Shown here: piece after piece, positions 27,862-35,943 of the stretch
Layout: each line of letters begins with the position of its first letter
Position numbering within the stretch: position 1 is the stretch's first letter
Origin: Prochlorococcus sp. AG-670-O13
GTDB taxonomy: Bacteria > Cyanobacteriota > Cyanobacteriia > PCC-6307 > Cyanobiaceae
Length of the DNA stretch: 38,305 nt
Direction: 5' to 3'
NCBI GenBank assembly: GCA_003209055.1
Contig: QCTB01000008.1
Coordinates: forward strand, 1 to 38,305
The notes under the pieces: generated by a model
What the model was told of the DNA's origin: nothing
The model's database searches: none
The model's input: only the letters and a program-made list of their open reading frames with translations
Program-made: the position numbers and the translations under genes

Positions 27862-28712
27862 TCAGGCATTAATCATAGTTCCAATTCCTGAATTTGTAAA
27901 AATTTCTAGAAGTAATGAATGTTCAAGCCTCCCGTCAATAATATGAGCAGCTTTTACTCCTTGAGCTAAGGCTCTAATACAACATTCTGTTTTTGGACGC
28001 ATCCCATTACAAACAATATTTTTTTTAAGAAATTCTCTTGCCTCTTTTAGGTTTATTTGTTTTGCGAGACTGTTTGGGTTGTCTCTTTCTTTAAGTATCC
28101 CAGGAGTATCAGTAAGAAGAATAAGTTTTTCTGCATTTATTGAAGCGGCAACTTCGCCTGCTACGAAATCAGCATTAATGTTATGAGAAATGCCATCTAT
28201 TGTAGAACCAATACTTGAAATAACAGGAATATATCCTTTTTCAATTAGAGGGTCTAATAATTCAGGGTTGACTTTTGTAACCTCTCCAACTAGCCCATGA
28301 CTTCCATCTCCTAATTCTCTTGACTGAATTAAGTTGCCATCAAGACCTGAAATGCCAACAGCTAATGAGCCTGTTTTATTGATCCCCCTCACAATATGTT
28401 TATTAACTCTTCCCATTAGTACCATCTCAACTATTTCCATTGTTTTCTCATCAGTAACTCTTAACCCATTTTCAAACTTTGGAGATATTTCCAACTTGTT
28501 TAACCAATTATTGATTTCGGGACCACCTCCATGTATCACTACTGGACATACACCAACACTTGATAAAAGAGCAATATCTCGAAAAAAAGCTTTTTTAATT
28601 TTTCATCTTCCATAATGGAACCACCATACTTAATAACAATTTTTCTACCTGAAAAACTTTGTATGTATGGTAGTGCTTCACTTAATATTGATACTCTTTG
28701 GGAATCATCCAT
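27862..28712 (-). CDS. argB: Acetylglutamate kinase, reading frame interrupted by an apparent -1 frameshift
   Basis: ArgB phosphorylates N-acetylglutamate in arginine synthesis. From the ATG at 28712 the frame gives 41 residues matching ArgB ([20 protein letters not shown]) and then leaves frame; the rest resumes in the -1 frame as [13 protein letters not shown] then [13 protein letters not shown], through to the stop at 27862. Without a shift, translation stops at codon 58. Joining frames gives 283 residues, the normal length. The junction is TTA AAA AAG (28598-28590), a canonical A AAA AAG slippery heptamer in the right frame; equally, one lost A from an A7 run explains it. Most likely the gene is functional and the base loss is an error or recent mutation, but recoding is possible. 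The downstream C-terminal part is intact. Confidence 0.85.
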
Positions 28713-28777
28713 TACAAACGGGAAATTTGAATTTGATTGAATTGAGAAATTGAATTTTCATAAATATATTCTCATAT

Positions 28778-29308
28778 CTAATAAAAGAAAATCAAATCGA
28801 ATTCCTTTTTATTATCGTTGATAACTAATTCTGAGACAAGACCTTTGACAAAAAATCTATTTAACCTCTCTTGTTTAGCTAACCACTGTTCAAAAGGAAC
28901 ATCATTTATTTCAAAATTCATCCTAAATCCATTTCTTTCTTCTTTTGTTATTTCTTCAATCTCTTTGAGTTGGGGAGGATTATCTTCATTCCACAAATTT
29001 AATGACTCAAGTGATGATTCAAGATGTGCTTTTATTCCGTACCTCCATCTCGTGACATCTTTAACCAAGTCGGTTAATTCTTTGGGTCTATTAAATTTAT
29101 TTTTCTTGAAATTATCACTATTTACTAATTTAACTGGAGGTATTTCAGATGTTTTCAAACCAAGTCCAATAAGTAAAATAGGTACTCCATAAAAGAAAGT
29201 AGGTACACTAAGATTTACTGAATCAGTGAAATAAGCTGTCATTCCAATAAAAGCTAAAACACCACCTGCGACTGTTATTATATTTGCAGGGGAAAGGTAT
29301 TTCTTCAT
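28778..29308 (-). CDS. DUF2854 domain membrane protein
   Basis: 176 residues with two closely spaced hydrophobic segments (about 11-26 and 36-49) and a soluble C-terminal domain; MKKYLSPANIITVAGGVLAFIGMTAY and FFYGVPILLIGLGLKTSEIPP match the DUF2854 family, found in cyanobacteria and plant plastids. Function is unknown; a thylakoid or envelope membrane location is inferred from its phylogenetic range. The start codon directly adjoins an A18 tract on this strand. It is followed by argB after 65 bp. Confidence 0.88.
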   Translation of the reverse strand: MKKYLSPANIITVAGGVLAFIGMTAYFTDSVNLSVPTFFYGVPILLIGLGLKTSEIPPVKLVNSDNFKKNKFNRPKELTDLVKDVTRWRYGIKAHLESSLESLNLWNEDNPPQLKEIEEITKEERNGFRMNFEINDVPFEQWLAKQERLNRFFVKGLVSELVINDNKKEFDLIFFY

Positions 29309-35820: not shown

Positions 35821-35943
35821 ATAAATAAATTTGAAATATGTTTAATATTATCAATTAAGGTGTAAAAATAATTTAAAGTGTCTTGAGTCCCTGAAGGCAG
35901 GTAGTTTAGATTTATCCTTTCTGCTAGTTTCTGCAATAATAAA

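Follow-up and report, generated by a model that had tools for sequence, protein, structure and literature searches.

In E. coli dnaX, a programmed -1 frameshift takes place on the heptamer A AAA AAG with a purine-rich stretch upstream, and the same heptamer, in the same phase and likewise preceded by purines, stands in the argB gene described here. Unlike dnaX, however, argB has no predicted downstream stem-loop, its site is not conserved, and relatives whose frame is unbroken use its purine stretch as part of their coding sequence. The best heptamers in E. coli, A_AAA_AAG among them, are described in one account as shifting at around 0.3% when no stimulators are present (PMC4066793). A second point of comparison is provided by the homopolymer frameshifts that transcriptional slippage possibly rescues in Blochmannia and Buchnera, where, as in argB, the length of a run has changed in a core gene of an AT-rich genome (PMC3017870). 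However, the runs in that description are long poly(A) runs (PMC3017870), whereas argB carries A6 and T7 and belongs to a free-living organism. A third is found among the singleton frameshift genes of the GeneTack survey, in which a conserved gene likewise carries a one-base break in a single genome while its relatives are intact; the survey, as described, used complete genomes, whereas the argB case comes from a draft, and its description yielded no other difference (PMC3711429). Frameshift genes that are validated by BLAST and remain unclustered are expected in that description to be sequencing errors (PMC3711429).

The window, that is, the whole stretch of 38,305 nucleotides that was analysed, is contig 8 of a genome of 1.06 Mb in 66 contigs, which is 68% complete and whose named relatives are Prochlorococcus. 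Here argB occupies two frames of the minus strand (Table 1). The last 16 of the 57 residues encoded by the 5' ORF, those after KLKK, are out of the ArgB frame; this ORF is 93% identical to three relatives (L002, L007 and L009) over 44 aa, and on its own it has no match to the NCBIfam model TIGR00761 (argB) at E 0.001. The 3' frame, which is -1 relative to the 5' frame and begins GCT TTT TTT CGA GAT (AFFRD), shares 92-93% amino acid identity with the nearest relatives, and the 3' ORF taken from GTG 28539 scores 231.8 bits against the same model, for which the cut-off is 151.3. By this match of its 3' ORF to a curated model, the gene is argB, predicted to encode the N-acetylglutamate kinase of arginine synthesis. 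An earlier note on this DNA had described argB as lying in two frames joined by a -1 shift at TTA AAA AAG. Both coordinates and phase were confirmed on the minus strand, where positions 28598-28581 read TTA AAA AAG and then CTT TTT TTC in the 5' frame, and the junction (28598-28590) is occupied by an X XXY YYZ heptamer in zero frame. The GGAAG that the note had placed 10 nt before the heptamer is present, and the run lengths it had given for the minus strand, A6-GC-T7, are correct.

Table 1. Features of the argB locus, in window coordinates.
Feature	Position	Strand	Description
argB 5' ORF	28539..28712	-	57 aa; residues 1-41 (MDDSQRV...EKLKK) correspond to ArgB
argB 3' frame	27862..28590	-	AFFRDIALL through to the C terminus; 242 codons and a stop
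TTA AAA AAG	28590..28598	-	site with one A fewer than the TTA AAA AAA of close relatives
T7 run	28582..28588	-	within TTT TTT (3' frame); in AG-424-P23 the run is T8 and the frame is broken

At 176 of 178 aligned loci, some genomes being represented by more than one locus, the comparison leaves the window short by one base net; the other two loci (L103 and L227) both come from a single genome, which has a slip of its own. An intact ArgB of 283 aa is encoded at 108 of 110 compared loci (this genome's own plus 29 plus 80 named ones, some genomes possibly being counted twice), the two others being those of this genome and L103. The closest relatives read either TTA AAA AAA GCT, followed by TTC TTC or TTT, or TTA AAA GAA GCT, with few other forms. 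The presence of A7 at the site in close relatives such as L002, L006 and L007 supports the proposal of the earlier note that the assembly or the genome has lost one base. Relative to L006, the window has one A fewer at the site and a silent TTC-to-TTT change that creates the T7 run. The form that the note had predicted for the intact gene, A7-GC-T7, does occur, in a genome (G149, L238) that encodes a 283-aa ArgB.

A genus-wide search covered 266 genomes, 214 of which gave a full-length match to the argB 3' part, and in 212 of these the upstream frame is open for at least 284 codons. The two exceptions are this genome (246 codons, A7 to A6) and AG-424-P23 (G184, matched by contig coordinates to L103, with L227 as a second record; 244 codons, T7 to T8), whose slip lies just downstream of the A run. 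Five partial matches were excluded (G011, G047, G068, G223 and G286, of which that of G223 stops at a contig end), and for 46 of the 266 the search produced no argB match that could be used. The A6 break is private to this genome among the genomes searched, and no other genome of its species was found. It was also observed that the argB search gave no match at E 1e-20 in G227 and G311, which are 94% and 96% complete; that argB is broken near residue 232 in G281 (L254, about 1885), where an A run is two bases shorter than in relatives; and that the N-terminal part of argB spans more than one frame in the draft locus L189 (G096, same class only), at 772-964. Counted over the 215 genomes in which the gene is either full or split, argB is broken in three (this genome, listed as G000, together with G184 and G281), which is slightly above the prediction from the single-cell rate (p = 0.055), although the starting case is itself among the three.

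The differences that separate the 3' part from five relatives number, at codon positions 1/2/3, 13/7/65, 16/6/59, 17/5/58, 17/5/58 and 18/3/67, which amounts to a third-position share of 72-77% (58-67 of 80-88 differences). Such a substitution pattern shows recent purifying selection on the predicted product of the argB 3' part. Because the differences are mostly at third positions, the break is either very recent or not in the cell. The same genome carries open frames for argH and argJ; argC, for which this 68%-complete genome gave only a sub-cut-off match, carries no weight.

The argB break is probably an amplification or assembly error rather than a programmed site. This model proposes that the gene in the cell is an ordinary intact argB now, or was until very recently, and that one A was lost from a seven-A run, most likely by a slip while a single-cell genome was undergoing whole-genome amplification or being assembled. 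The deposited record would then carry A6, and the slippery heptamer would be a remnant of that loss and no recoding signal. Names of single-cell type are carried by 78 of the 80 named relatives, the AG-, AH-, SCGC and scB names being taken here to denote single cells. We infer that the loss happened outside the cell. The pipeline behind 489 Prochlorococcus single-cell genomes is described as leaving 3.0 indels per 100 kb, as the mean of three cultures (PMC6122165), and the size, fragmentation and company of this genome suggest a single-cell (SAG) assembly from this type of pipeline. At 3 per 100 kb, the expectation is 1.15 indels for the window and 3.6 for the 120 kb of coding sequence that was compared. 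However, the Prochlorococcus benchmark culture tended toward the fewest indels in the figures of a further report (PMC5519541), which weighs against an error. An earlier single-cell Prochlorococcus study is quoted with 0.70 and 0.44 gaps per kb (PMC2731171).

Frame breaks elsewhere in this genome were scanned for with 752 ORFs of the complete genome G022, which were compared with the window and 20 further stretches, a procedure that is blind near gene ends. In total 144 ORFs were matched, 47 of them in the window, over 120 kb aligned. The argB break was the sole break counted as real, and the strict count for the window likewise held argB alone. The possibility that the genome is riddled with frame errors was rejected, given one real break (argB) in 120 kb. 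Not counted as breaks were flags raised ahead of proS, at an ORF that overlaps a tRNA gene and, in the window, at an N-terminal leader (residues 1-29 of the reference L132_11458) and at a stop that cuts L132_762 three residues short. At 35838-35936 of the window, on the minus strand, a coding-like stretch, LQKLAERINLNYLPSGTQDTLNYFYTLIDNIKH, lies directly upstream of a proS-like start, MRVTTSFPLGTLRD, the gene downstream being presumably proS. Counterparts of LQKLAERINLNYLPSGTQDTLNYFYTLIDNIKH can be recognised in many further Prochlorococcus loci, where they frequently lie in another frame than the gene or run into a stop, and the stretch at 35838-35936 may be a small leader ORF.

Around argB, the 78 loci of single-cell type held six strict-count breaks in 1.29 Mb of coding sequence, all at runs, and 38 finished-like or isolate stretches held one in 0.67 Mb, an excess that is not significant (6 vs 1, p = 0.25). 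Two L042 breaks, the L103 argB break and one putative L096 break are omitted from the strict count, as they lie near reference protein ends. Nine single-cell breaks were checked base by base; all are +1 and fall in A, T or G runs. Checked in this way, the breaks of L042 and L103 show an extra base at the run, and at L042 and L038 some aligned relatives carry further gaps, so that net differences vary. As the nine are +1 and the argB break is -1, the latter is not of the commonest type here, which weighs against an error. Likewise, the finished-like stretches also have one break, so that the single-cell excess is not significant, and this weighs against a simple error. In L103 (AG-424-P23), at about 9606 and 9950, argB and a neighbouring gene are each +1 in a run (T8 and A8), some 350 bases apart, and stops were flagged in a further gene. 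In L042 (AG-469-F22), at about 2525, a G8 run accompanies a frame break in a gene that is read as CAAGGTGGGGTAAATGC in its relative L032 and that we take to be purA. In L243 (G161, one contig), at about 1815, AAATTCC has become AAATCC by a deletion near residue 79 of a 501-aa gene.

An alternate scenario, rather unlikely, is a real and very recent one-base deletion in this lineage, by which ArgB would be lost or made in traces through slippage, leaving an arginine auxotroph or a leaky cell; such slippage may take place at A AAA AAG or at the A6 and T7 runs. A frameshift of this tolerated kind had been allowed for in the earlier note. The second, different slip at neighbouring codons (the T8 of L103/G184) indicates that argB is exposed to slips, as does the run two bases short elsewhere in argB in G281, although G281 and G184 are drafts as well. 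A one-base deletion in a conserved gene is present in the finished-like G161 too. When another gene was left to drift in the laboratory, indels are described as having arisen in runs of 3-8 bases and been bypassed (PMC3812077), and the core genes of Blochmannia are described as retaining homopolymer breaks that transcriptional slippage possibly corrects (PMC3017870). However, the unstimulated shift on the best heptamers in E. coli is put at only the rate quoted above (around 0.3%; PMC4066793), and transcriptional insertions are reported to climb steeply with run length (PMC5574713), the argB runs being of six and seven. Run avoidance is described as evident at nine in many genomes, and the A6 and T7 of argB are shorter, although the same source allows that shorter runs may slip in some bacteria (PMC1088944). 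Further, a free-living autotroph should be unable to do without arginine synthesis; knockouts of this pathway are expected to be rare there and amplification indels to be common, and an error is thus favoured over a private mutation.

It is very improbable that the adjoining A/T runs at argB codons 40-44 constitute a slip-prone on/off site in Prochlorococcus, at which the gene would alternate between intact and broken (A7 to A6 here, T7 to T8 in AG-424-P23). If this were true, on/off switching would yield short-lived arginine auxotrophs, or leaky ArgB makers, living on the arginine of their neighbours.

The suggestion of the earlier note that dnaX-type programmed -1 frameshifting keeps ArgB alive in this lineage did not withstand comparison and is regarded as extremely improbable. 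It draws on an A AAA AAG in the right phase with GGAAG 10 nt 5' of it. However, removal of any A from TTA AAA AAA GCT gives TTA AAA AAG CT, so that the in-phase heptamer is automatic and not independent evidence, and A AAA AAG stands in phase 52 times in 315 other mechanically called ORFs (at least 150 aa) of this genome. A programmed site would be kept by selection and hence shared; the heptamer break of argB is unshared, which argues that it is not programmed. The frameshift architecture is absent from all other genomes of the 214 with a full-length 3' match, G184 breaking differently. GGAAGATGAAAAATTAAAA is present in 16 other loci, in which at least two genomes are represented twice, and the A6 break in 0 of the 16. 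GGAAG itself, found in the broken argB of this genome and equally in 16 other loci, all of which lack the A6 break, is part of the MEDEK codons in relatives that have no break. RNA folding of 91 nt (28610-28520), without pseudoknots, predicted no stable downstream structure (z = 0.16), with 107 of 200 shuffled sequences folding as well or better. An Rfam search over 28300-28800 at E <= 10 gave seven matches, all below their cut-offs and none a frameshift element. ARAGORN found tRNA-Lys in none of 60 stretches covering parts of two genomes, a result without bearing on whether a single tRNA-Lys reads both AAA and AAG. In the literature on Prochlorococcus frameshifting, homopolymers, slippage or argB slippery sites, no title among the matches listed concerned this case. 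Programmed frameshifting was accordingly rejected on conservation, on upstream and downstream signals and on heptamer background. The probability that argB has become a pair of genes, with the 3' ORF initiating at GTG 28539, comes close to negligible. This GTG does overlap the TAG of the 5' ORF by one base, but its 225-aa product would be without residues 1-58, including the N-terminal KYGG segment that is important for catalysis, a 17-residue ArgB segment would fall in neither product, and the upstream frame is cut in this region in no other same-genus genome searched except G184.

An amplification or assembly error thus remains the probable reading of the argB break, and it bears on how similar sites are to be judged. 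In AT-rich drafts, the loss of one A from an AAA AAA lysine pair before a G yields a textbook-looking A AAA AAG. Since a homopolymer slip alone creates the heptamer, a slippery heptamer should not be taken for recoding where the frame break is private. If the break were real, it would offer a natural test of the extent to which a free-living cyanobacterium can tolerate losing arginine synthesis.
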